From: Flavobacteriales bacterium
GTDB lineage: Bacteria > Bacteroidota > Bacteroidia > Flavobacteriales_D > Sanyastnellaceae
DNA: 44,073 nt
Reading direction: 5' to 3'
Assembly (NCBI GenBank): GCA_015665315.1
Contig: JADFAK010000069.1
Location: 1-44,073, forward strand
Part shown: positions 1,507 through 22,538 of the stretch, piece after piece
How the letters are laid out: every line of letters starts with the position of its first letter
How positions within the stretch are numbered: position 1 is the first letter of the stretch
Made by a program: the position numbers and the translations under genes
The notes under the pieces: generated by a model
What the model saw: only the letters and a program-made list of their open reading frames with translations
What the model was told of the DNA's origin: nothing
Databases searched by the model: none

Positions 1507-2715
1507 AAGTGCGGTATCATCTATGTAGGGCATACTTCCCCGATAATCTTCCAGCGATTGCATAATTAACCGGTTCAACTGCTCTGGAGTTTTTTCGAGA
1601 TTGGCTAGGATTAATTCTTCCAAAGCTTCCAGGCTATACTCTTCGTGGTCTTCATTCTCCAACTCGACTAGTCCGTCGGTATAACAAACAACCAAGGCAT
1701 TCTTATCCAAAACCAAGGAGCCTTGACTTATCGTTGGAATTTCTTCAAACATCCCTAGGCCGATAGACCCCAAGCTCAGGAGTTCCGCTTTTCCTGCGGC
1801 GTTGACACTTACTGGCGGATTGTGACCACAGTTGATGTAGCGCAATTCGCGTGTTTCATTGTTGAATATTGCGATGAAGAAAGTGATATACTTCTCCCCC
1901 ATCGCACTGGACATCACCCGACTGTTTAGCTCGCGCACCACCTCTTCCAATGACATATTGCAATAGGTGAAAATTGCTCTGAGGTAGGCCTGAAAATTAG
2001 ACATTAAGAAGGCCGCTGAAACCCCCTTTCCAGAAACATCGGCCATGCAAAACATGACTTCTTGCTCATTGAGCTGCATGAAGTCGTAATAATCTCCTCC
2101 AACTTGCTGGTGGGGCTTGTAGACGGCCGCAATTTCATGCAAGTCATTTTTTGGAAGTGTATCAGGCACCAGCAAGGCTTGCATTTCAGCCGCCAATTCT
2201 AACTCCTTCTTCGTTCGCTCCTGTCGCAGAATGTCAACGGCCATTTTTTCATTCTCGATAGCCACCAAAATAATATTGGTGAAAGTCTGAATGAAATTCA
2301 TGTGCTTGATCACAGGGCTCACCTTAATTTCCTGCTCACCGATATCCCCAACCAATAAATAGGCGATGGGCTTGTCGTTGTGAGACACGGGGATGACAAT
2401 ATCAAAAGCTTCATCCGAAACTGAAGAATCGATATTTAACGAAATATTGTTGGACTGCTTGAAGTAAGTTTCGTCTGCGATATCGCCGATTTCCCCCTCA
2501 ACTCCATATTTCAAAATACACTTCCAAGCACCGTCGAAGGCGAAGAGAATCACCTTTTCAATGCTCAAATCGTCGCGCAGCGTGGTCTTGTAAATGGCCA
2601 AAAGCTCCTCTGTACCCACCTTGTTGTTTATGGCTTTGGTGGTTTCCAATAAAGACTGGAGTTTGAAATCCTTGTCTTTAATTCGGTCTAAAAGTCTTTT
2701 TTGTCGAATGGCCAT
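1486..2715 (-). CDS. GAF-like / PP2C (SpoIIE-type) serine phosphatase
   Basis: The 409-residue protein has a GAF-like sensory region (about residues 20-155), a short helical linker and a SpoIIE/RsbU-type phosphatase domain (about 175-409). The phosphatase signatures are all present: GGDYYDF at 206-212, MADVSGKG at 224-231, the GHNPP motif, YTDGLVE, and YIDDTALL near the end. The acidic residues in these motifs bind the metal ions. RsbU-like enzymes dephosphorylate anti-anti-sigma (STAS) proteins in partner-switching pathways. No STAS or anti-sigma kinase partner is visible here, so its target is unknown. No signal peptide or membrane segment is seen, so it is probably cytosolic. It lies 25 bases downstream of the lpxD-like gene on the same strand and may be co-transcribed with it. 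Confidence 0.9.
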   Translation of the reverse strand: MAIRQKRLLDRIKDKDFKLQSLLETTKAINNKVGTEELLAIYKTTLRDDLSIEKVILFAFDGAWKCILKYGVEGEIGDIADETYFKQSNNISLNIDSSVSDEAFDIVIPVSHNDKPIAYLLVGDIGEQEIKVSPVIKHMNFIQTFTNIILVAIENEKMAVDILRQERTKKELELAAEMQALLVPDTLPKNDLHEIAAVYKPHQQVGGDYYDFMQLNEQEVMFCMADVSGKGVSAAFLMSNFQAYLRAIFTYCNMSLEEVVRELNSRVMSSAMGEKYITFFIAIFNNETRELRYINCGHNPPVSVNAAGKAELLSLGSIGLGMFEEIPTISQGSLVLDKNALVVCYTDGLVELENEDHEEYSLEALEELILANLEKTPEQLNRLIMQSLEDYRGSMPYIDDTALLTCRLF

Positions 2716-2740
2716 TTGATTTGTTGGAATGCTATCTAAG

Positions 2741-3670
2741 TTATTTTAATTTTTCGATTATCTCAGGAAGTTTCCGAATCATTCCCAATTCACGCCATTT
2801 GGCGCGGGCCTCTTGCGCTGGACTTCCCAAGTAGGTTTTCCCTGGTTCTAGGTCTTGCATCAATCCGCTTTGCCCCAAAACTACTGCTCCTTTTCCAAGT
2901 CGGATATCACTGATTACTCCTACTTGTCCCCAAAGCACCACATCATCTTCAACCGTCACGCAGCCCGCGATTCCCACTTGGGCAGCAAACAGACAATTGC
3001 GACCAATGACCGTATCATGTCCAATGTGAACGTGGTTGTCCATTTTTGTTCCCGCCCCAATAACGGTGTCGGAGGTAACACCTTTGTCTATCGTACACAA
3101 GGCTCCAATTTCGACATCGTCGTGTACGACTACCCTTCCGCACGTATGCATTTTCGAATACTTACCTTCCTTCTTCTGGTAGTAAAAAGCATCCGCACCT
3201 AGCACTGCATTGGCATGGATTACCACACGATTTCCAATGACTGTATTATCATGAATAACGACCCCAGCATGGATCACGCAATCCTCTCCAATGGTCACAT
3301 TTGAACCCAAACTCACATGTGGAAAAAGCTTGGTGCCCTTTCCTATTTGAAGCTGCTCTCCTCGGTTTGTTTCCCACGGATTAAACGGACTAAAATGCCT
3401 CGTAAGCTTATTGAAATCGTTGAAGGGGGTCTTGGAAACGAGCAGGCCTTTTCCCGGCGGACAATCCACTTCCTTGTCTATAAGGATCGTCGTTGCCGCC
3501 GAATTGAGTGCTTTGTCGTAATACTTCGGATGGTCTACAAAAACCAAATCCCCTGGCCTAACACGGTGAATCTCATTGATGCCCGAAACTAGGTGATTGG
3601 CGTCTCCGACAAATGTACATCCAAGCAACTCTGCAAGTTCGCACAAGCTTTTACCAGGGAGAAAGTCCAT
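2741..3670 (-). CDS. LpxD-like UDP-3-O-acylglucosamine N-acyltransferase (second-paralogue type)
   Basis: The 309-residue protein has an N-terminal uridine-binding-like domain (about 1-105) and then a left-handed beta-helix of hexapeptide repeats (IGKGTK, IGEDCV, IGNRVV and so on). This is the architecture of LpxD, which adds the second hydroxyacyl chain in lipid A synthesis. The catalytic His is retained as H218 in HIGHD. Exactly 37 residues later, where E. coli LpxD has H276, there is D255 (GVISDIRLG). The gene sits directly downstream of efp, an arrangement that in Flavobacteriales typically carries an LpxD paralogue distinct from the main lipid A gene. It may therefore act on a different acceptor or acyl chain. 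The start is ATG at 3670, seven bases after the efp stop codon. Confidence 0.85.
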   Translation of the reverse strand: MDFLPGKSLCELAELLGCTFVGDANHLVSGINEIHRVRPGDLVFVDHPKYYDKALNSAATTILIDKEVDCPPGKGLLVSKTPFNDFNKLTRHFSPFNPWETNRGEQLQIGKGTKLFPHVSLGSNVTIGEDCVIHAGVVIHDNTVIGNRVVIHANAVLGADAFYYQKKEGKYSKMHTCGRVVVHDDVEIGALCTIDKGVTSDTVIGAGTKMDNHVHIGHDTVIGRNCLFAAQVGIAGCVTVEDDVVLWGQVGVISDIRLGKGAVVLGQSGLMQDLEPGKTYLGSPAQEARAKWRELGMIRKLPEIIEKLK

Positions 3671-3677
3671 GGATGAA

Positions 3678-4244
3678 TTATTTTTTCACCCTTTCAGAAT
3701 ACTCTCCCTTGCGCGTATCCACCTTGATCCAATCTCCAGTATTTATGAATAGGGGAACACGAATCTCCGCACCTGTATCGATGGTAGCAGGCTTCAACGT
3801 ATTTGTTGCCGTATCACCTTTGAGTCCAGGTTCGGTATACGTTACTTCGGCTTCAACATGAGGAGGAACTTCTACACCGAGCGCAACTTCTTCATCGGCA
3901 TGAAACATGATCTGACAATCCAACCCGTCCTTTAGAAACTGAGGAGAATCGATAAGTTCTTTGGCGATAGGCACTTGCTCGTACGTTTCCGTATTCATAA
4001 AGTGATAGCCCATATCGTCGTTATATAGGTACTGATAGTTACGTGTTTCGATACGAACCACATCAATTTTCACTCCAGCATTGAAGGTGTTGTCAACCAC
4101 ACGACCCGTGCTCAAATTTTTCAATTTCGTGCGCACAAACGCCGGCCCTTTACCCGGTTTTACGTGCAAAAATTCAACTACTTGCCACAATCCGTCTTTC
4201 AAATTGATGCAAAGACCGTTCTTGATATCTGATGTATTTGCCAT
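3678..4244 (-). CDS. efp: Translation elongation factor P
   Basis: The 188-residue protein matches EF-P over its full length. It has an N-terminal KOW-like domain, a middle OB domain and a C-terminal OB domain, with EF-P signatures such as [16 protein letters not shown] helps ribosomes stalled at polyproline stretches. The tip residue, modified in many bacteria, is K32 in the loop KPGKGPAF. A longer open frame begins at 4331, but the extra 29 residues are unlike EF-P, whereas [10 protein letters not shown] is a normal beginning, so I placed the start at 4244. A -7 element at 4263-4270 lies between the two candidate starts and supports this choice. The lpxD-like gene follows after seven bases. 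Confidence 0.96.
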
Positions 4245-4522
4245 AATATATGTTCTTACCCGCAAAAGTAGACAATCCAATTCAATGGAAACTACTGCAC
4301 TTATGAGGAATCGAAGTTTTAATTTATCCAAGCTGCCCTCATGGAGACACTTATTTTTAGCGACGAGCGCAAATGCTTGTTTCTCCTAAATGAATATATT
4401 GTCGTCAACGTCGTACTTTTGATTCGAAGGGATCGAAATGGTGAATGTTTTAAAGAATTCGGGCTTATGACTATGCTGCTGTGCCAAGGACATTCCTTCT
4501 TCAATTATAATACTTTGCTATT
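4245..4522. other. Divergent intergenic region with candidate promoters
   Basis: This 278-base gap separates divergent efp and the repeat-protein gene. Short open frames occur on both strands, but none has protein-like composition or a plausible start. Besides the efp element it holds a plus-strand TACTTTTG at 4414-4421, an exact -7 consensus about 100 bases before the next gene. A weaker TACTTTG, one base short of consensus spacing, lies at 4511-4517, five bases before the TTG start. Confidence 0.5.
4263..4270 (-). promoter_or_regulatory. -7 promoter element of efp
   Basis: On the minus strand these bases read TACTTTTG, an exact match to the Bacteroidota -7 consensus TAnnTTTG. It ends 18 bases before the efp ATG at 4244. 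No TTG is seen at the usual -33 distance. It would drive efp, the lpxD-like gene and perhaps the phosphatase. Confidence 0.65.
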
Positions 4523-4999
4523 TTGATACGACGACTTCTAATCATACCCCTATTGGTCATTTGCACTTTAGTGCTAAACGGACAAACACATGTGTACAAC
4601 AGCGAGTTTGGCTATCCAAGTGATATGGTGGCCAATATTCAGTCGGGACATGTGAATTTAGGTATGGAGTTGATGTGGTCAAAGGCTCTGTTGAGTGTTC
4701 GGGAAAATTATATCTACGACGGCTTTAGTAGCAGTGGGTTCGATGCACTTTATGTTGTTCGCGACGGACAACTATTCCTGGGTGACAGTCAGTTCTCCAG
4801 CGATATTTTATACACTTACCGCCAGGGAAAGATTTACCGCGGCGACAGTGAATTTATGATGGATCAATTGTACACTTTTGACCGCGGCAAGTTATACCAA
4901 GGCAACAGTACGATGGTTTTTGATTTTCTATTGATGTTTGACAGCGAGCCTACCCTTCCCGAGTTATTCGCCGTTTTGCTTGCACTAGAATTACTCTGA
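4523..4999 (+). CDS. Secreted protein made of six 20-residue repeats
   Basis: The 158-residue protein has a signal peptide (residues 1-20, ending LNGQ). Almost all of the mature chain divides into about six units of 20 residues. The clearest two read GDS.F..D.LYT...GK.Y, as in RGDSEFMMDQLYTFDRGKLY. Short regular repeats with D/N-S and G-K-hydrophobic-Y turns suggest a closed, petal-like all-beta fold; the recently described beta-flower proteins are a possible relative, but I cannot confirm this. The start is TTG at 4523, since no ATG or GTG in frame precedes the signal peptide without a stop. The stop is only three bases before the histidine kinase gene, so the two are surely co-transcribed. 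It could be a ligand-binding or accessory protein for that kinase. Confidence 0.75.
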   Translation: MIRRLLIIPLLVICTLVLNGQTHVYNSEFGYPSDMVANIQSGHVNLGMELMWSKALLSVRENYIYDGFSSSGFDALYVVRDGQLFLGDSQFSSDILYTYRQGKIYRGDSEFMMDQLYTFDRGKLYQGNSTMVFDFLLMFDSEPTLPELFAVLLALELL

Positions 5000-5002
5000 C
5001 CT

Positions 5003-6895
5003 ATGCAACTGAACAAAATCCTTCTCCTGCTTTTCTGTCTCGGTCTCTCCACATTGAGCCTTGCCCAAGATCCGCGAGCAATGAGCGAACAATTGGATTC
5101 AGAGATTGGTCAATTGTTCATTTCGAAAAAATACAATCCTGAAGCGGCGCTTAGACGAGCTTATGAAATCGACGAGATTACAAAAAGCAATCGCTTTCAC
5201 AATGTGCGCATCCGTTGCTTGAATTTAATCTCTATCATTCATATGGACAGGGAGATGTATGGATACGCCGACTCCACATTGAACCTTGCGCACACGATTT
5301 CCCATGATTTCAATGATTCCCTTTTAATGGGATCGACTTTGGTGAATTGGGCCAAGTTGGATATGATTCGGGGCGACTATTTATCGGCCACCGACAAGGT
5401 TCTTAAAGCCAAAACAATATTTGAACTTAAACAGCGCGTGAAGGGTGAAATACATTGCGCCTACTTACTTGCACAGGTTCACTTCCATCGTCAGCTATAC
5501 GCCGAAGCCAACGATGACTTGATTTGGGGGATCGACAAGAGCAAACTGTTGAAAGACACCATTCTCGAAGCAGCCGGATTGGTGAACCTAGGATTGAACC
5601 AAAAAAAGCAAGGCCAACCAAGCGATGCCATTAATTCGTTGAAGCGCGCTTCCAGCTTGTTGAGTCGCTGTCAAGAGCAAGGAGATATCCTCCAGGCTTG
5701 GCTTGCACTATCTTCTCTCTACGCCGATCTTGGCAAGAAAGAAGAAACGCTGGAGTACATCACAAGTGTGCGCAAATCGGAGAAGTTGGACCCACACCTG
5801 CCCACACGTGCCGAAGCTTTGTTGGTACGAAGCAACTTGCACCACAACTTAGGAGAATTCGAGACCAGCATCCTCTTTGCCGACTCGGCATGGGTATTGT
5901 CACAGGGCATTGACCATGGGGATGTTGGAGCGAGGGCGCTGGATCTGAAGCAAAAATCCTTGTACGGAGCAGGAAGGTATCAAGATGCTTACGAAGTGCT
6001 TAACCTAAAAAATGAGGTCGTAGACTCTACAGTCACACGAATCAATCAGCGAGAAATTAACGAATTGGAGAAAATGTACCGCGATGCTACAAAGGATCGT
6101 GAAATCCTGCTTTTGCAGACTAGTCAGCTCTCCAAAGACAAAACGTTCGACAGAATTATATTTGCGCTTGTCGCTGTTTTAATTGTCCTATTATTTTTAG
6201 GAGGGTGGTATATGTTTAGGAATCGGCAGCGGAGATTGCATGACAAGTTTGACAAAATCGACTTGGAGCAAAAGGCTTTGAAGGCGCAGATGAATCCACA
6301 TTTTATTTTCAATGCGCTCAATTCAATTCAAAGTTCGATTTTGAATGAAGATCGGATGCTGGCCTATGAGTTTCACAACAAATTTACCAAGCTGATGCGC
6401 CGAATTCTCACCTTATCTCGCGAAGAATTTGTTTCGATGCGGGACGAGTTGGAGACGCTCAAATTGTACATTGATTTGGAAAGGTATAGGGCCGACAATG
6501 CGTTTGATGTTGAGTACCAGATTGACGAGGCGATCAACCTTGACCGACAAAAGACACCTTCCTTGCTATTTCAGCCCTATGTAGAAAATGCTATTTGGCA
6601 TGGAATGATGCCTAACGAACAGAAAGGTCAGCTCGTCATAAAAATGGAGCAAAAGGGAAATCTAGTCATGTGCTATGTGCGTGACAATGGAATGGGTCGC
6701 ACAAATACAACGCGCACTGCTTCGCGCCGAAAAAGCGAGCATGAGAGTGTGGGCATGGAAGTCACCGAAACACGTATCAAGCTATTTAATCGCAAGCATG
6801 GCAAGAAGATAAGCGTTCACATATCGGATCTCGCCGAGAATGGTAAGCCTGCTGGAACGGAAGTACAGTTTTCACTTCCGCATTTGGACGAGTAG
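5003..6895 (+). CDS. TPR-containing LytS/YehU-type sensor histidine kinase
   Basis: The 630-residue protein begins with a signal peptide (1-21) and a helical TPR-like periplasmic region (about 25-350). A single membrane segment follows at about 385-405 and then a short coiled coil. The C-terminal half is a kinase of the His_kinase (LytS/YehU) family. The phospho-accepting His is H433 in QMNPHFIFNALN. The ATP-binding domain has the N-box YVENAIWHG near 525 and a G-box RDNGMGR. Such kinases usually signal to LytTR-domain response regulators, but none is adjacent, so this is an orphan here. The repeat protein lies three bases upstream. Its stop codon directly abuts the convergent purS stop, leaving no intergenic base. 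Confidence 0.9.
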   Translation: MQLNKILLLLFCLGLSTLSLAQDPRAMSEQLDSEIGQLFISKKYNPEAALRRAYEIDEITKSNRFHNVRIRCLNLISIIHMDREMYGYADSTLNLAHTISHDFNDSLLMGSTLVNWAKLDMIRGDYLSATDKVLKAKTIFELKQRVKGEIHCAYLLAQVHFHRQLYAEANDDLIWGIDKSKLLKDTILEAAGLVNLGLNQKKQGQPSDAINSLKRASSLLSRCQEQGDILQAWLALSSLYADLGKKEETLEYITSVRKSEKLDPHLPTRAEALLVRSNLHHNLGEFETSILFADSAWVLSQGIDHGDVGARALDLKQKSLYGAGRYQDAYEVLNLKNEVVDSTVTRINQREINELEKMYRDATKDREILLLQTSQLSKDKTFDRIIFALVAVLIVLLFLGGWYMFRNRQRRLHDKFDKIDLEQKALKAQMNPHFIFNALNSIQSSILNEDRMLAYEFHNKFTKLMRRILTLSREEFVSMRDELETLKLYIDLERYRADNAFDVEYQIDEAINLDRQKTPSLLFQPYVENAIWHGMMPNEQKGQLVIKMEQKGNLVMCYVRDNGMGRTNTTRTASRRKSEHESVGMEVTETRIKLFNRKHGKKISVHISDLAENGKPAGTEVQFSLPHLDE

Positions 6896-8076: not shown

Positions 8077-8147
8077 GGTCCTGTGGCCGAGCGGCTAGGC
8101 AGAGGTCTGCAAAACCTCGTACAGCGGTTCGAATCCGCTCGGGACCT
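8077..8147 (+). tRNA. tRNA-Cys (anticodon GCA)
   Basis: The 71-base sequence folds into a full cloverleaf. The acceptor stem GGTCCTG pairs with CGGGACC with one G-T pair. The anticodon stem is GAGGT/ACCTC with loop CTGCAAA, giving anticodon GCA at 8109-8111. The T arm has GGTTCGAATCC. The discriminator base is T, as expected for tRNA-Cys. CCA is not encoded. Confidence 0.98.
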
Positions 8148-8152
8148 CCGAG

Positions 8153-8227: not shown

Positions 8228-8400
8228 GTGAAAAGTAAAAGGCTTGTTTCTCAATCAATTTCCGGGTAAAGGGAATGATGAAAAACAAGCCTAAAGGCAA
8301 ATGATGAAGGTGACTGTTAGAGAGAATCACCTCTCGTGGCACGTTGATTTCTACCCCCAGAAATGATGTCATTGAAGAACAAGCATTTGCCAGCGGCTAA
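8228..8400 (-). ncRNA. Candidate structured RNA
   Basis: Nothing protein-like is visible in 8185-8412, yet it is rich in nested inverted repeats. A ten-base perfect stem pairs 8240-8249 with 8283-8292. Inside it, 8254-8256 plus 8258-8263 pair with 8271-8279 around a seven-base loop. Next to it, 8296-8303 pair perfectly with 8384-8391 and enclose smaller hairpins at 8308-8332 (six base pairs) and 8347-8364 (six base pairs). On the minus strand the first hairpin is followed by TTTTACTTTTC, like an intrinsic terminator. A weak TACTTTG promoter-like box lies at 8403-8409. I therefore suggest a minus-strand RNA of about 170 bases. It matches no RNA family that I recognise, and a 68-codon open frame crosses it. 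Confidence 0.4.
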
Positions 8401-8412
8401 TTCAAAGTAAAT

Positions 8413-8444
8413 TTATCTCAAAATCGTGATGCTTCCCGAAACCT
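8413..8444. repeat. 32-bp direct repeat, copy 1 (copy of a T9SS gene 3' end)
   Basis: These 32 bases are identical to 10128-10159. On the minus strand they encode VSGSITILR plus stop, the last residues of the T9SS protein at 10128-13280. Here an in-frame TAG lies directly upstream, so this copy is not translated as part of any gene. The two copies bracket the gene at 8490-10082. Confidence 0.9.
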
Positions 8445-8489
8445 AAATATCTAAAACCTCACGTCTTCGGACTAGCGGCTCCAAATAAG

Positions 8490-10082
8490 CTACTCACACG
8501 TGCTATCGAAAGCACTTAAAAACGTCAATAAGTCAGTTGTATCTATTTGAGAATCCCCATTGAAATCCGCCGGACAACTTGATGCCAAATCAAATGTACA
8601 AGTACCATCATCCATAGTCTTTGTCGGATCATAGTCTGGTGAAGATGAATAAGTACAACCCACACAAGAAGTATACTCACAACTGTTGTCATTGCACATT
8701 GCTTCTGGATCGTAATTGCATGCCTGTTCCTCAGTGCAACCAGAAAAAAACAGGCAAGAATTATCGTCACAAGTCGCATCGAGACAGAAATTGCAGGCCG
8801 TCGAATCTGTGCAGCCTATCTGTCCATTCTCAAAAATGCTCGTGGTGTCCCCTACGGAAACCCCATTGGAGGTTATTATCACAACTTGAACTACTCCAGT
8901 GCTCGAAGGTACCGGTACTTGACAGAAAATTTCGGTAAGAGAATTAACGATTACGTTTGACGCTTGATTTCCACCGATTAAAACCTGAGTTTCAGGCGTA
9001 AAGTTCTCGCCTAGTATGATGAGTGACTCTCCACCAAAACAAGTGCTATGAATAGAAAGAGAATTGATAACTGGAATTAAGCAAGATCCATCGTCACATA
9101 GTGCCTCTGGATCGTAGTTGAACGATGTAATTTCTGTGCATCCAGGATATGAACAAGAGCCATCATCACATCCTGCGGAAGAAGAATAATTACACGCCAG
9201 CGAATCCACACAACCAGCAAAAACACACGTATCGTCATCGCAACCCGCCTCTGCATTGTAATTGCAAGCATTTAAATCAGTGCACCCAGGATATAAACAC
9301 GAACCATCATCACAATCAGCTAATGAAGAATAATTACATGCAAATGGAAAAGTACACCCCCCAACTTGTCCTTCGCAGCCGCATGCAGTCGGCATACTGC
9401 CAGGTGTCCCATCAACTTCAATCCCTAATATTTGCACGGTAGTCACAGGAATAAAGACCGATCCATCGGGATTGAGCTTTCTAAGCTGCAAATTCAGTAG
9501 TAGGGAAAATATTCCGTCCGTTGTGATCTGTGCCAATAATACTCTCCCATCAGGCCCCGGAATCCCTTCACTATTAGGTAGTAACCATACTCCAAAAACA
9601 CTAGAACCAACTATATCGTTGACCGTAAAACCTGATCCACCTTCAAAAATTGGAAATGGATTCGGGCTTCCTGATATTGTGGTTGTGGAGCTATTGTATT
9701 CATCAAGTCCACCAGGTCCAGAACCAATAGTGAACCATGAATCATATTGAGAGGCAGGCTCCAATGGGAAAAACGCAGGATTCACATTTGCCGCAATCGC
9801 TCCAGAATTGAATTCTGCTTGATAAAAAGTAGTTGTGGTCGAAGTCACCCAATTATTTACATTGTCTCCAAATATGGCTTGAACCTCCCAATTCGCATCG
9901 TCCAGACAAGCATAAACTCGCCAACATCTGGGTGCAGATGGCCCTTCCAACTGCGAATCTATTGTTGAAGCAGACATATCATCAATTTCTATTTCTTGAA
10001 CAGAAATGCCGACGAACGGGTACTGCGCATAACTTAGCAATGATGAGTAAAGAACCATCACGCACACCAACAAACACTTCAT
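8490..10082 (-). CDS. Secreted protein with Cys-rich repeats, IPT/TIG domain and dockerin-like tail
   Basis: The 530-residue protein has a signal peptide (1-19). Residues about 20-230 form a domain shared with the protein at 21690-22538 (matching blocks YDSWFTIG, GRVLLAQITTDG and RKLNPDGS). Seven Cys-rich repeats follow, of the type CTD..ACNY...A.CDDGSC, four at 243-337 with a 24-residue period and three at 424-497. An IPT/TIG-like Ig domain (about 338-418) is inserted between the two groups. The C-terminus, CPADFNGDSQIDTTDLLTF then LSAFDSTCE, resembles a single dockerin-type calcium-binding loop ending in Cys. No T9SS C-terminal domain is present. It lies 45 bases downstream of the T9SS gene on the same strand. 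Function is unknown; surface binding is likely. Confidence 0.85.
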   Translation of the reverse strand: MKCLLVCVMVLYSSLLSYAQYPFVGISVQEIEIDDMSASTIDSQLEGPSAPRCWRVYACLDDANWEVQAIFGDNVNNWVTSTTTTFYQAEFNSGAIAANVNPAFFPLEPASQYDSWFTIGSGPGGLDEYNSSTTTISGSPNPFPIFEGGSGFTVNDIVGSSVFGVWLLPNSEGIPGPDGRVLLAQITTDGIFSLLLNLQLRKLNPDGSVFIPVTTVQILGIEVDGTPGSMPTACGCEGQVGGCTFPFACNYSSLADCDDGSCLYPGCTDLNACNYNAEAGCDDDTCVFAGCVDSLACNYSSSAGCDDGSCSYPGCTEITSFNYDPEALCDDGSCLIPVINSLSIHSTCFGGESLIILGENFTPETQVLIGGNQASNVIVNSLTEIFCQVPVPSSTGVVQVVIITSNGVSVGDTTSIFENGQIGCTDSTACNFCLDATCDDNSCLFFSGCTEEQACNYDPEAMCNDNSCEYTSCVGCTYSSSPDYDPTKTMDDGTCTFDLASSCPADFNGDSQIDTTDLLTFLSAFDSTCE

Positions 10083-10127
10083 ATGAATAGAATATTTGGT
10101 GTAAGTTATTAAATAATAATAAGATAA

Positions 10128-10159
10128 TTATCTCAAAATCGTGATGCTTCCCGAAACCT
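10128..10159. repeat. 32-bp direct repeat, copy 2 (3' end of the T9SS gene)
   Basis: This copy is the authentic 3' end of the 1050-residue T9SS gene, including its TAA stop. It is identical over 32 bases to 8413-8444, 1715 bases away. Confidence 0.9.
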
Positions 10160-13100
10160 TTTGCGAGTCGTAATTCACTCCGCTGTATTTGATGAGGTAG
10201 CTGTATACACCGTTTGGAACATAGTGCGTTTCACCTTGAGTTCCTCCGAGCCAAATGTCGTTGAGATCGGTTGAATGCCACACGGTTTGTCCCCATCGAT
10301 CGAAGATGAAGAGTTCGTACTCCACGATACCGTCGCCAACAACAAACCAGTTATCGTTGATACCATCGCCATCGGGTGTAAATGCGTTCGGCACATACAA
10401 TGTAAGAGGCGCGAGCACTAAATGGTGTACAACATCCGAACATCCCAACTCATTGGTTACGGTGAGCCAAGCCGTGTATTGTCCAAGACCGTCGTAGCCT
10501 TTAATCGGAGAGAACTCAGTACTATTTGTTCCATCGCCAAAGTCCCAGTAATACGAACAACCATCGCATGGGTCGGGATCGGTGATTGCTACAAACTGCA
10601 CTTCGGATTCACTGTAGAAATTCATTTCGAAATCGGCATTTACATCTTGGACATCTACCGTCATCTCGGCATAACCAAGCGTTCCGCAAATGTCGGTTGC
10701 TATGACTTCATAAATAGTGGTCGTATTCGGATCCACTTGAATGTTTACCTCGGTACTTGACGAATGCGGCCAGAAATAGGTAAATCCACCTTCCCCTCCG
10801 AAAGCTTCCGTGTGCAGCACAACGGCATTGCCAAAACAAATGGAGGTATCGGCCGTGAGCTCAACCACAACGGGAATATCTGGAATGTTGTAGATCAACG
10901 AATCAGTATGTTCGTATCCACAGGCATCGGTAACTCTGCAATAAATGACATCCGTCTCGTAGCTCTGGTGTGCGAGGGACGAAGAGGTCGAAACTACTTC
11001 ACCTTCGATGGTCCATTCAAAATCGAAATCTGGAATACCATCGGTAACCGTCGCGTCCATTTGCGTGAGATCCACGCACGACGCATAAATATCTTCGCCC
11101 AAGTCTAAGACAGGCGCGATGCTTTCAATGGTTACGACGATTGAGTCTTGTGCAGACTGCCCACAGTTATCAGAAACGTTGAGATAAACTGTAGTTGACT
11201 GGTTGCTTTGAAAAGTGAGGTTTTCATCGGCACCAAGGTTGTTGCCTTCACTTGACCAGCTGTAGGTATAGCCAGGAATACCGCCCATCACAGAAGGTTC
11301 AAACTGGAATACATCGATGCAAGAACCCGAAGCCTGATCGACCATTGTAACGATCATTTCGGGAGAGACAATAACGATATCAATGTCTTGGGTCACAAAA
11401 TTCCCACAGTTATCGCTCACGTCAACTGTAATGGTAACATCATTTATCCCGTTCACGGTATAAGTAGGCTGCCAGTCTACCCAGGCGCCATTGACATACC
11501 AATTGTACCAAACCTGACCATCGGCCGTAACATCGGGAGCGATCGTGTACTGACTATTGCAGTCTACTTCGATCACTGCTGGGACATCTACGATTAAATC
11601 TGGAAGGTCATAGGTCACTGGTGAATTGGCGGTCGCCACGAATCCGCAGCCATCGGTAACCTCCACGTTAATTTCTTCGGCACCTGTCCAAGTGCTCACC
11701 CAAAGCGAATTCTGCCATCCGAACAGGTTTGCCCCATCTTCATTGGTCCATAGGTAAGTAAAATTACCATCGCCACCATCGGCAGTCGCAATTACGTTAA
11801 TACCATCGCACCCCACGACAATATCTGCTGGGTCGAGGGTTACATTGAGATTTGGTAAATCAAGCACGGTTATAATAAAATCGGCATCGTCCGATGGCAT
11901 ACCGCACGTATCTGAAACGATTACGTTGTACGTCGTCGTAGATCCGGGAGAGACATTGATGATGTCGGTAGTTTCTGTTGTACTCCATTCGTACGAGAAA
12001 TTTCCGTAGCCACCGGTTATAATCGGCTCCAAATCGATGGAAGTATTCAGACAAATCTCCTCATCAAACCCTTCGACCACCATGGGGTCGGGGAAATCGG
12101 AAATATAAAACTCAAATGTGGAAGTAACACCTGCTCCGTTGCAAGCGGCTAGATTGAGGATATTAAAATGAACGAGCTCCTCTCCTTCGGGAATTCCATC
12201 AATAATGGCAGTTACTGGGAATGACACTTCGGCCACTCCAGGTGCAAAAACCACGGTATCGGGTAATTGAGTGTAATCGACACCATTGATAGCCTCTCCT
12301 TCGTAGATTATAATGACCATCTCTTCGATTTCCAGGATAGAAACTTCGGGACGTGTAAATGTTAGTATAGCTTCTCCACAATCTTCATAAATGGTGTTTG
12401 CTTCGGGTCCGCCTACATCGATGCTCAGGTCAATTTGAACAACGGCATTGCTTGAAAAACTTCCTGCTTCTAGGACCACGATAGACTCCAGTCCTGCATC
12501 ACTTCCATCGGCGATAGCCAACTTGATATGATAGGTTTCTCCACACTGCACTGGACTAGAGGCTACAAACGTTGTAGTAAACCCGTTAATCGCAATGTCC
12601 TCATTAATGAAGTTGTCAAAATTATAGATGAAGTACTCTTCGTTGAGGACATTATTCACAGAGCTTATGGTCACGGGAAGTGGAGGAACTGCATCGGGAA
12701 CTCCTGCAATATTGATTGCCCCGTCAGGAAATCCTGCCGGACTGTTGTATGGTCCCGTCAATCCAGGGCCAGAAAGGAAGAAGGCGAAAATATCGTTGTA
12801 TTGTGTGTTGACATAGGTCAAATACTCATCCGATGCGAAACTATAATTGAAGCTCACGGTATCACCAGTAGCGACAAAATCAAATTCGAGAATGCAAACG
12901 TCATTCATACTACCAACGGTGAAGTTTTGTCCGATAAGAGGTGGAACTGAATTGGCAATTGTTAGTAGATCGGGCTCACCAAGTACCTCTTCCCCATTGG
13001 GAATGAACATATCTCCATCATCATTTAGCACAACATTGCTCGCGTCTTCCGTTGATAAAACCAGACCTTGACCTATCGGAAAAATAGTGCCTTCCGCACC

Positions 13101-13280
13101 ACTCAAAAATCCTAATTGAGACATTGAACCCGTGTACGTTACATTGGTTGCTTCAACCCCTGTCCCCAATAATATATCGTTTACATATTCTTCAATGGTG
13201 AAGGTTTGTTCCACGGTAATTTGTCCTGTCGTCAGGTAACTCATCCCAATGATCAAACACAATGCTGCTAATTTCTTCAT
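10128..13280 (-). CDS. Large T9SS-secreted surface protein, choice-of-anchor L type
   Basis: The 1050-residue protein has a signal peptide (1-19). The N-terminal domain (about 20-270) resembles the choice-of-anchor L family, as in GQGLVLSTEDASNV and FNYSFASDEYLTY. A Calx-beta-like stretch follows at about 280-385, then five or six Ig-like repeats with spaced Cys and YEW/YLW strands. A PKD domain near 880-955 carries YYWDFGDGT. The last 90 residues, from PNAFTPDGDGIND, are the gliding-motility-type C-terminal domain that marks type B substrates of the type IX secretion system. The protein should be exported by Sec and then moved to the surface by T9SS. Adhesion is the likely role. A -7-like TATTTTCG lies at 13316-13323. 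Its 3' end is duplicated at 8413. Confidence 0.9.
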   Translation of the reverse strand: MKKLAALCLIIGMSYLTTGQITVEQTFTIEEYVNDILLGTGVEATNVTYTGSMSQLGFLSGAEGTIFPIGQGLVLSTEDASNVVLNDDGDMFIPNGEEVLGEPDLLTIANSVPPLIGQNFTVGSMNDVCILEFDFVATGDTVSFNYSFASDEYLTYVNTQYNDIFAFFLSGPGLTGPYNSPAGFPDGAINIAGVPDAVPPLPVTISSVNNVLNEEYFIYNFDNFINEDIAINGFTTTFVASSPVQCGETYHIKLAIADGSDAGLESIVVLEAGSFSSNAVVQIDLSIDVGGPEANTIYEDCGEAILTFTRPEVSILEIEEMVIIIYEGEAINGVDYTQLPDTVVFAPGVAEVSFPVTAIIDGIPEGEELVHFNILNLAACNGAGVTSTFEFYISDFPDPMVVEGFDEEICLNTSIDLEPIITGGYGNFSYEWSTTETTDIINVSPGSTTTYNVIVSDTCGMPSDDADFIITVLDLPNLNVTLDPADIVVGCDGINVIATADGGDGNFTYLWTNEDGANLFGWQNSLWVSTWTGAEEINVEVTDGCGFVATANSPVTYDLPDLIVDVPAVIEVDCNSQYTIAPDVTADGQVWYNWYVNGAWVDWQPTYTVNGINDVTITVDVSDNCGNFVTQDIDIVIVSPEMIVTMVDQASGSCIDVFQFEPSVMGGIPGYTYSWSSEGNNLGADENLTFQSNQSTTVYLNVSDNCGQSAQDSIVVTIESIAPVLDLGEDIYASCVDLTQMDATVTDGIPDFDFEWTIEGEVVSTSSSLAHQSYETDVIYCRVTDACGYEHTDSLIYNIPDIPVVVELTADTSICFGNAVVLHTEAFGGEGGFTYFWPHSSSTEVNIQVDPNTTTIYEVIATDICGTLGYAEMTVDVQDVNADFEMNFYSESEVQFVAITDPDPCDGCSYYWDFGDGTNSTEFSPIKGYDGLGQYTAWLTVTNELGCSDVVHHLVLAPLTLYVPNAFTPDGDGINDNWFVVGDGIVEYELFIFDRWGQTVWHSTDLNDIWLGGTQGETHYVPNGVYSYLIKYSGVNYDSQKVSGSITILR

Positions 13281-21689: not shown

Positions 21690-22538
21690 TTAACATCCGC
21701 TGTCAAAAGCGCTTAAAAAGAAGAGTAGATCATCGGTTCCGGTGCTTCCGTCCTGACTAAAGTCAATAATACAATCCGACGTACATCCAAAATTGGACAA
21801 AAGGAAGAGCAAATCTGGGGTTGCTACATGACCAGAGCCATCAAAATCTGCCGCACAAGGCGAAATAACATCTGGCATGAGCGTTACGCACTGATTGCTA
21901 AACAGTTCAGTCTCTGAAGTTGCTGTTCCGGGGGGATCGTAAATTGTTCCATCTGGATTCAGTCGGCGAATTTGAAAATTGAAACAAGCCTCTATCGTAC
22001 CATCCGACGTGAATTGCGCTACAAGAATTCTACCATCGGCGTCGATCATATTCTGTGGAATTCCGCCCGCCGTGGGCATCAACACTCCGGCTCCTACTAT
22101 ATCAGAAAACAGCAAATCGCCTCCAGACTCCCATGTGGCATAGGGCGTGATGTCTGGAAAGATGGTTAGGATATTCCCGACGACGTTGTCGAGACCAACT
22201 GTGATCCATGAATCATAGGCCAATTCAGGTGTGAGAGCGATTTGTCCCGGGGTGATAAATGAAGCGGTGGGTCCGCCATTGATATCTTGATAGAACTGGG
22301 TAGTTGATGTAAAACTCATCGCAGTGACAAAATCACCGTAGATAATCTGCATTTCATAATTGTCAGGAATCTCGGCATAAACGCGATAGGTGGCTGGCTC
22401 ACCTCCCAAAGCATTGGTTATCGTCGTCAGCGCAGGCTCATCAATTGCAATCTCTTCAGTAACAAGATTTAGAAATGGGGATTGAGCAGAAAACACACTT
22501 GCACATCCCACAAACATAAGGGTGAATAAATTTTTCAT
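21690..22538 (-). CDS. Secreted protein with two dockerin-like repeats
   Basis: The 282-residue protein has a signal peptide (1-19, ending FSAQ). Residues about 20-225 are a beta-rich domain homologous to the N-terminal part of the protein at 8490-10082 (YDSWITVG, GRILVAQFTSDG, RRLNPDGT). Two dockerin-type units follow: CAADFDGSGHVATPDLLFLL at 228 and IDFSQDGSTGTDDLLFFLSA at 258. The chain ends in FDSGC. Asp/Asn/Ser positions suit calcium-binding loops. There is no T9SS C-terminal domain. Dockerin-like tails ending in G-C are known from planctomycete secreted proteins; here they may be a binding or sorting tail. It is separated from its paralogue by 11.6 kb. Confidence 0.85.
   Translation of the reverse strand: MKNLFTLMFVGCASVFSAQSPFLNLVTEEIAIDEPALTTITNALGGEPATYRVYAEIPDNYEMQIIYGDFVTAMSFTSTTQFYQDINGGPTASFITPGQIALTPELAYDSWITVGLDNVVGNILTIFPDITPYATWESGGDLLFSDIVGAGVLMPTAGGIPQNMIDADGRILVAQFTSDGTIEACFNFQIRRLNPDGTIYDPPGTATSETELFSNQCVTLMPDVISPCAADFDGSGHVATPDLLFLLSNFGCTSDCIIDFSQDGSTGTDDLLFFLSAFDSGC

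Follow-up and report, generated by a model that had tools for sequence, protein, structure and literature searches.

Integrative elements with att sites at the 3' ends of genes leave the target gene with a restored 3' end, as part of a direct repeat. Minimal mobile elements are exchanged by homologous recombination in the genes that flank them, after DNA uptake. Such elements were described in Neisseria (Saunders and Snyder, 2002, via PMC4269198). The class termed 'insertion with long target duplication' was described in Helicobacter pylori (Nobusato, Uchiyama, Ohashi and Kobayashi, 2000, Gene 259:99; via PMC1643837, PMC3031569 and PMC2869330). The passages on this class in PMC1643837 and PMC3031569 speak of one or more genes inserted relative to another genome with 'long and variable target duplications', of a frequent association with restriction-modification genes, and of a repeat form that is expected to permit tandem amplification. 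For Arabidopsis, a section of PMC2869330 on transposed single genes gives repeats longer than 30 bp for nine of the 25 genes with a known donor; the flanking repeat is of host genic sequence, mostly that of the target, and a circle intermediate was proposed.

The locus described here lies in a window of 44,073 nucleotides, the whole stretch of DNA analysed, from a Flavobacteriales bacterium (assembly GCA_015665315.1, contig JADFAK010000069.1), and is a clean single example of an already described, rare kind of gene movement. We consider it probable that a 1683-bp segment with a single gene, here called X, entered the chromosome immediately after the stop codon of a T9SS gene, and that the event duplicated the final 32 bp of this gene. 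As in the H. pylori class, so far as the passages named above describe it, a gene is inserted relative to another genome and the target is present as a direct repeat; here, however, the gene encodes a surface-type protein rather than restriction-modification functions, the phylum is another one, the duplicated target is precisely the last ten codons of a gene, and the comparison is between species rather than strains. At 32 bp the repeat is longer than the usual transposon duplication; the insert is absent from the same place in G001, one relative that belongs to another species; and, by our own definition of a non-transposon insertion, the insert has no transposase, no integrase and no terminal inverted repeats. 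The Arabidopsis cases, on the account given in that section of PMC2869330, are alike in being single non-transposon genes flanked by a direct repeat of host genic sequence, mostly that of the target, but they are plant genes, and those 25 have a known donor, whereas none was found for X among the loci compared. With minimal mobile elements the locus shares the presence of different genes between conserved neighbours (X and an RDD-family gene, in two genomes), and it differs in its target repeat, of which the description in the relevant passage of PMC4269198 makes no mention. The locus is of interest as a nearly undamaged example of a single bacterial gene added without a visible mobile element and with its target unharmed, in a host genome rich in paralogous surface proteins.

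A repeated gene end on either side of one gene

The target gene (10128..13280, minus strand) encodes a protein of 1050 aa with choice-of-anchor L, Calx-beta, PKD and T9SS type-B sorting domains, the last of which (CHU_C) is matched by Pfam at 60.5 bits and by TIGR04131 at 39.1 bits (cut-off 35). Its last ten codons and its stop codon, TAA, form one copy of the 32-bp repeat (copy 2; 10128..10159, minus strand), and the edge of the repeat coincides exactly with the stop codon. The other copy (copy 1; 8413..8444, minus strand) lies downstream of X, is untranslated and is immediately preceded by an in-frame TAG. The two copies are identical at 32 of 32 positions, in direct orientation and 1715 bp apart. 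The 1683 bp between them consist of 45 bp from the T9SS stop codon to the start of X (10083..10127, minus strand), X itself (530 aa; 8490..10082, minus strand) and 45 bp from the stop codon of X to copy 1 (8445..8489, minus strand). X is the only open reading frame of more than 105 aa between the copies, the others being on the opposite strand. We could confirm each part of the layout given in a first-pass annotation of this DNA: two identical 32-bp copies, the second being the coding 3' end, with stop, of the 1050-residue T9SS gene and the first an untranslated sequence directly behind an in-frame stop, with one complete gene in a unit of about 1.7 kb.

With up to three mismatches allowed, the 32-mer occurs in the window as these two copies only, and the maximum number of matches in 100 shuffled sequences was zero, so a chance repeat was rejected. 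The same search of the 4.6-Mb draft genome likewise returned the two copies only, by which a dispersed repeat family was rejected, and viral contigs gave no exact match to the 32-mer.

The repeat is also specific for its own T9SS gene. The genome holds 53 matches to the T9SS protein, and those stopping short of its C-terminus were left out when gene ends were scored against the 32-mer. Scoring covered 24 other T9SS type-B gene ends, namely those of 23 fetched genes whose match reaches the C-terminus and one further in the window; the best two agree with the 32-mer at 19 of 32 positions, and the other T9SS gene end in the window at 18. Two of the 23 (on contigs C136 and C187) share the same 32-bp end and are near-identical over 680 bases. 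The end of the sister-species orthologue agrees at 23 of 32 positions, and the ends of two tandem T9SS paralogues in the sister genome (about 130 bp apart on G001:C8) at 15 and 20. Since copy 1 matches the end of its own neighbour perfectly and all of these other ends less well, it is most likely a fairly recent copy of that neighbour's end, made after the species split. By contrast, the first-pass annotation had allowed that several unrelated T9SS ends might fit copy 1 equally well, which would have made it a remnant of another T9SS gene; with 19 of 32 as the best of the 24, this was not borne out and such a remnant was judged unlikely. The perfect identity puts an upper bound (95%) of 8.9% per site on divergence if both copies were free to change, although copy 2 is coding and may have been constrained.

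We found no other gene bracketed by copies of a T9SS gene end, as the annotation had proposed looking for, behind any of the 23 other ends: in the 1.05 to 8 kb searched downstream of each, the last 60 bp do not recur over 13 bp or more, the longest match being one of 12 bp. Further likenesses around the insert did not stand out from shuffled sequence. The score of a diverged third repeat copy within the 45 bp behind X was equalled by 26% of 1000 single-base shuffles, that of a tandem-duplication likeness between the DNA before X and the DNA behind copy 1 by 98% of shuffles, and that of an inverted match between the insert ends by a non-significant 53% (0.53).

Across 121 loci (1.77 Mb, with the window included and distant pssA loci from named genomes in the background), a survey that left out low-complexity repeats and those of more than six copies gave 55 exact repeat pairs of at least 20 bp lying 600-8000 bp apart. 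Two of the 55 passed a filter for repeats that touch a gene end and have no wider similarity: the pair described here and one other, in which the repeat begins just past the stop codon.

The same neighbourhood in a sister species

The comparison genome, G001, is one other genome of the genus and belongs to another species, so that the comparison is not at strain level. One of its contigs carries, in this order, a histidine kinase gene, purS, pssA, tRNA-Cys and a T9SS gene represented by its 3' part; the order is the same as in the window, and the families were confirmed. The 3' piece of the T9SS gene is 65% identical to the target gene. The contig starts within this gene, and a 5' piece of 69% identity lies on another contig, which ends without overlap; the two pieces are probably one gene.

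X is absent from between the T9SS gene end and tRNA-Cys in G001. There the gap holds an RDD-family gene (158 aa, opposite strand), to which the window's genome has distant matches only (41% and 37%), on other contigs; the stretch from T9SS gene to tRNA gave no match between the two species. With X in one species and the RDD-family gene in the other, the two differ in what lies between T9SS gene and tRNA-Cys. The suggestion of the first-pass annotation that the T9SS gene gained DNA at its 3' end and stayed intact agrees with this sister genome, in which the same neighbourhood exists without X. The annotation had also pointed to relatives in which the T9SS gene would be followed directly by the DNA beyond copy 1. 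In this one relative X is indeed missing, but the flanks are not directly joined, since the RDD gene stands between them; G001 thus offers one gene end followed by the RDD gene rather than a clean unoccupied site. An insertion that spared its target gene is well supported, with this one relative as its basis, and we would read the difference as a gain of X here rather than a loss in the sister. The pssA loci from named genomes (the best 80, with a best-segment identity of at most 51%) were too distant for a comparison of the site.

The tRNA-Cys (GCA; 8077..8149, plus strand; found by ARAGORN and Rfam) lies outside the insertion, and the repeat has no contact with it. It stands near pssA in six of 29 other loci from the genus and family, the sister species included, and not in the other 23. 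The impression of the annotation that a nearby tRNA-Cys marks a plastic site is not supported, given a repeat that is clear of the tRNA and a tRNA that is found near pssA in six of these loci. In a plasmid search, all seven records match around the tRNA only.

Gene X and its relatives

X has, on our own reading, a signal-peptide-like start and a short dockerin-like stretch at its end, the latter reported by no model. Its N-terminal domain spans about 230 residues; the protein also has Cys-rich repeats and a weak TIG-like match below the cut-off. Searches of X with Pfam and NCBIfam gave no T9SS sorting domain and no match to a mobility family.

The N-terminal domain of X is 68% identical to a protein with a C-terminal type-A T9SS sorting domain that is encoded on G000:C22, another contig of this genome. 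Next to the C22 gene are genes for a radical-SAM/TRAM protein and an SRP54-type GTPase, which we take to be rimO and ftsY; the relative of the C22 gene in G001 is syntenic, with the same two flanking genes, and is 54% identical to X. In a ten-row tree, from which the rows G012, G021 and G031 were left out (wrong strand), X and the C22 gene are grouped apart from the G001 gene with a support of 91/95; this support is moderate and X is on a long branch. Because X groups with C22 (68%) to the exclusion of the orthologue of C22 in G001 (54%), X is probably younger than the split from the sister species. Its N-terminal domain is probably a lineage-specific paralogue, duplicated here and joined to a different C-terminal half. 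At the DNA level, X and the C22 gene are 69% identical over 583 bp, while the 32-bp repeat is still perfect, suggesting that X diverged from C22 before its arrival or evolved fast. A donor of more than 69% DNA identity to X was not found in the loci compared, nor was a closer protein found among the 150 of 211 candidates in the genome that were scored, and no relatives of X were confirmed in viral contigs.

The third-position GC of X, 0.343, is the lowest of the 30 window genes (next, 0.405). However, two of 125 other open reading frames from the fetched loci of the genome and the window are as low, and the Cys-repeat genes, represented by nine open reading frames with values of 0.332-0.518, tend to be low; composition therefore proves no foreign origin of X.

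Several genes resemble parts of X. The protein encoded at 3741-5030 of locus L133 has the same N-terminal domain, followed by a type-A T9SS sorting domain where X has Cys repeats and a dockerin-like end, and C-terminal halves may thus have been exchanged among surface proteins. A shorter protein encoded at 21690-22538 of the window has an X-like N-terminal domain (41%) and a relative at G001:C2, and gave no Pfam or NCBIfam match. At 1584-4088 of locus L151 (G000:C5:33000-42000), a two-gene unit forms a tandem duplication that includes exact repeats at a distance of 1333 bp; as we read it, the unit would consist of genes for a short dockerin-like protein and an X-like protein.

A possible route of insertion

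We propose that an intact T9SS type-B cargo gene received the X segment (X with 45 bp on each side) behind its stop codon. This would most likely have been the work of host repair or replication rather than of a dedicated recombinase. A staggered break may have been filled in around a captured fragment. Alternatively, a replication fork may have switched template at the stop codon, copied a fragment with X and gone back to a point 32 bp upstream. A perfect 12-bp palindrome, AGATAATTATCT (10122..10133, no strand), is centred on the junction of T9SS stop codon and insert, with its centre exactly at 10127|10128; palindromes at least as long have their centres at 10 of the roughly 44,000 positions of the window. 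The AAACCT of the repeat edge (8439) reappears 15 bp on, inside the insert, in the spacer behind X (8454). Both features were spotted post hoc; they are compatible with hairpin- or microhomology-assisted switching and are no proof of it. Since a direct repeat flanks the insert, the insertion should be reversible, recombination between the copies restoring the uninterrupted locus. The boundaries are sharp, such that strains or reads of the species could reveal the original junction and shed light on the origin of long target duplications.

Past copy 1 there is a terminator-like hairpin, AGGCTTGTTT...AAACAAGCCT then TTTTACTTTT (8240..8292, minus strand; fold -24.5 kcal/mol, z -6.9), with T-rich sequence after it; the hairpin is not among the results of a simple consensus terminator scan. 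Its orientation suits transcription arriving from the right, and it probably served the T9SS gene as terminator from the start and is now common to X. Because it lies beyond copy 1, X seems to be located between the T9SS stop codon and the old terminator of that gene. This position, together with the shared orientation, suggests that X is co-transcribed with the T9SS gene, in which case transcription would read through from the T9SS gene into X and end at the old terminator.

Alternative explanations

A length of 32 bp is typical of att sites, and direct repeats at both ends of the segment, at a gene 3' end and with the target gene restored and kept intact, are what att-site elements and this locus have in common. 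X could on these grounds be, or have come in, a minimal integrative element that has the T9SS 3' end as its att site and a recombinase acting from elsewhere; indeed, nine tyrosine recombinase matches above the cut-off lie on other contigs of the genome. None of the nine, however, is on this contig, and no integrase or transposase family was found among the 35 window proteins scanned, in keeping with the remark in the first-pass annotation that no integrase is present. The genome-wide search covered tyrosine recombinases and integron integrases. Unlike att-site elements, the 1.7-kb unit has no integrase in cis, the recombinase being absent from within the element, and it carries one non-mobility gene. 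Its putative site has no other copy in the genome and no exact match in viral contigs, and the 23 other T9SS ends do not recur behind their own genes over at least 13 bp in the fetched DNA. The repeat also has no notable fold (z -0.15) and is not attC-like. Hence the att-site integration named in the annotation is not supported in its integrase-driven form, there being no tyrosine recombinase on the contig and no further copy of the 32-mer in the genome, and an element served by a distant recombinase is unlikely. The other route that the annotation named, recombination between C-terminal-domain sequences of T9SS genes, is not supported either, since X lacks a sorting domain and copy 1 is specific to one gene. 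An integron gene cassette finds no support, as the repeat has no attC-type fold and no integron integrase match is above the cut-off (none of 14 matches in the genome reaches it; 14 of 14 control genomes are likewise sub-threshold).

A repeat of a different sequence was seen on another contig and, for that difference, a link to the 32-bp repeat was dropped. At locus L164 (G000:C31:31000-39000), a Fic gene and a DUF6090 gene lie between the two copies of a 123-bp repeat (3784-3906 and 6485-6607; 90% identical, found only twice in the genome). The repeat has a GTTAGGC core that resembles that of integron attC sites, and the neighbouring genes, which share one strand, could form a cassette array.

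Thirty-two base pairs are short for homologous recombination, which counts against a Campbell-type event in which a circle with X and the 32-bp T9SS gene end recombined homologously into the chromosome. Such an event would also need a prior copy of the gene end beside X, and so merely shifts the question to another strain. Nonetheless, it would yield exactly the layout observed, and a model of this form is given for repeat-flanked genes in a section of PMC2869330. On balance we consider it improbable.

The tandem T9SS paralogues of the sister genome raise the possibility that a tandem T9SS copy between X and tRNA-Cys was deleted here save for its last 32 bp. Given how poorly the ends of those paralogues (15/32 and 20/32) and the 24 other ends of this genome (at most 19/32) match the 32-mer, the lost copy would have to have been a very recent duplicate, and on the sister contig the stretch from the T9SS end to tRNA-Cys contains no additional T9SS gene; we regard this explanation as very unlikely. 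We consider it highly improbable that the T9SS 3' end is a true att site and that a recombinase acting in trans moves type IX cargo genes singly to the ends of resident cargo genes; if true, this would be a gene-cassette-like system that rearranges the cell surface.

Comparison of 15 contig ends gave two overlapping pairs, each of exactly 127 bases; such a length is what assembly at k=127 would leave and is far above 32, making an overlap artefact of 32 bp unlikely. Although this is a draft genome of 219 contigs, some with overlapping ends, and C136 and C187 begin almost identically (at 658 of 680 bases), which implies that variant copies exist in the assembly, we consider it highly improbable that the repeat is a k-mer overlap from joined contigs of two strains, as the overlaps are 127 bases long rather than 32 and the repeat stops precisely at the stop codon. 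Tandem repeats of about 170-176 bp are present at the start of G000:C93 (L162, 1-585) and at the end of G000:C71 (L173, 4983-5441), where they possibly stopped the assembly.
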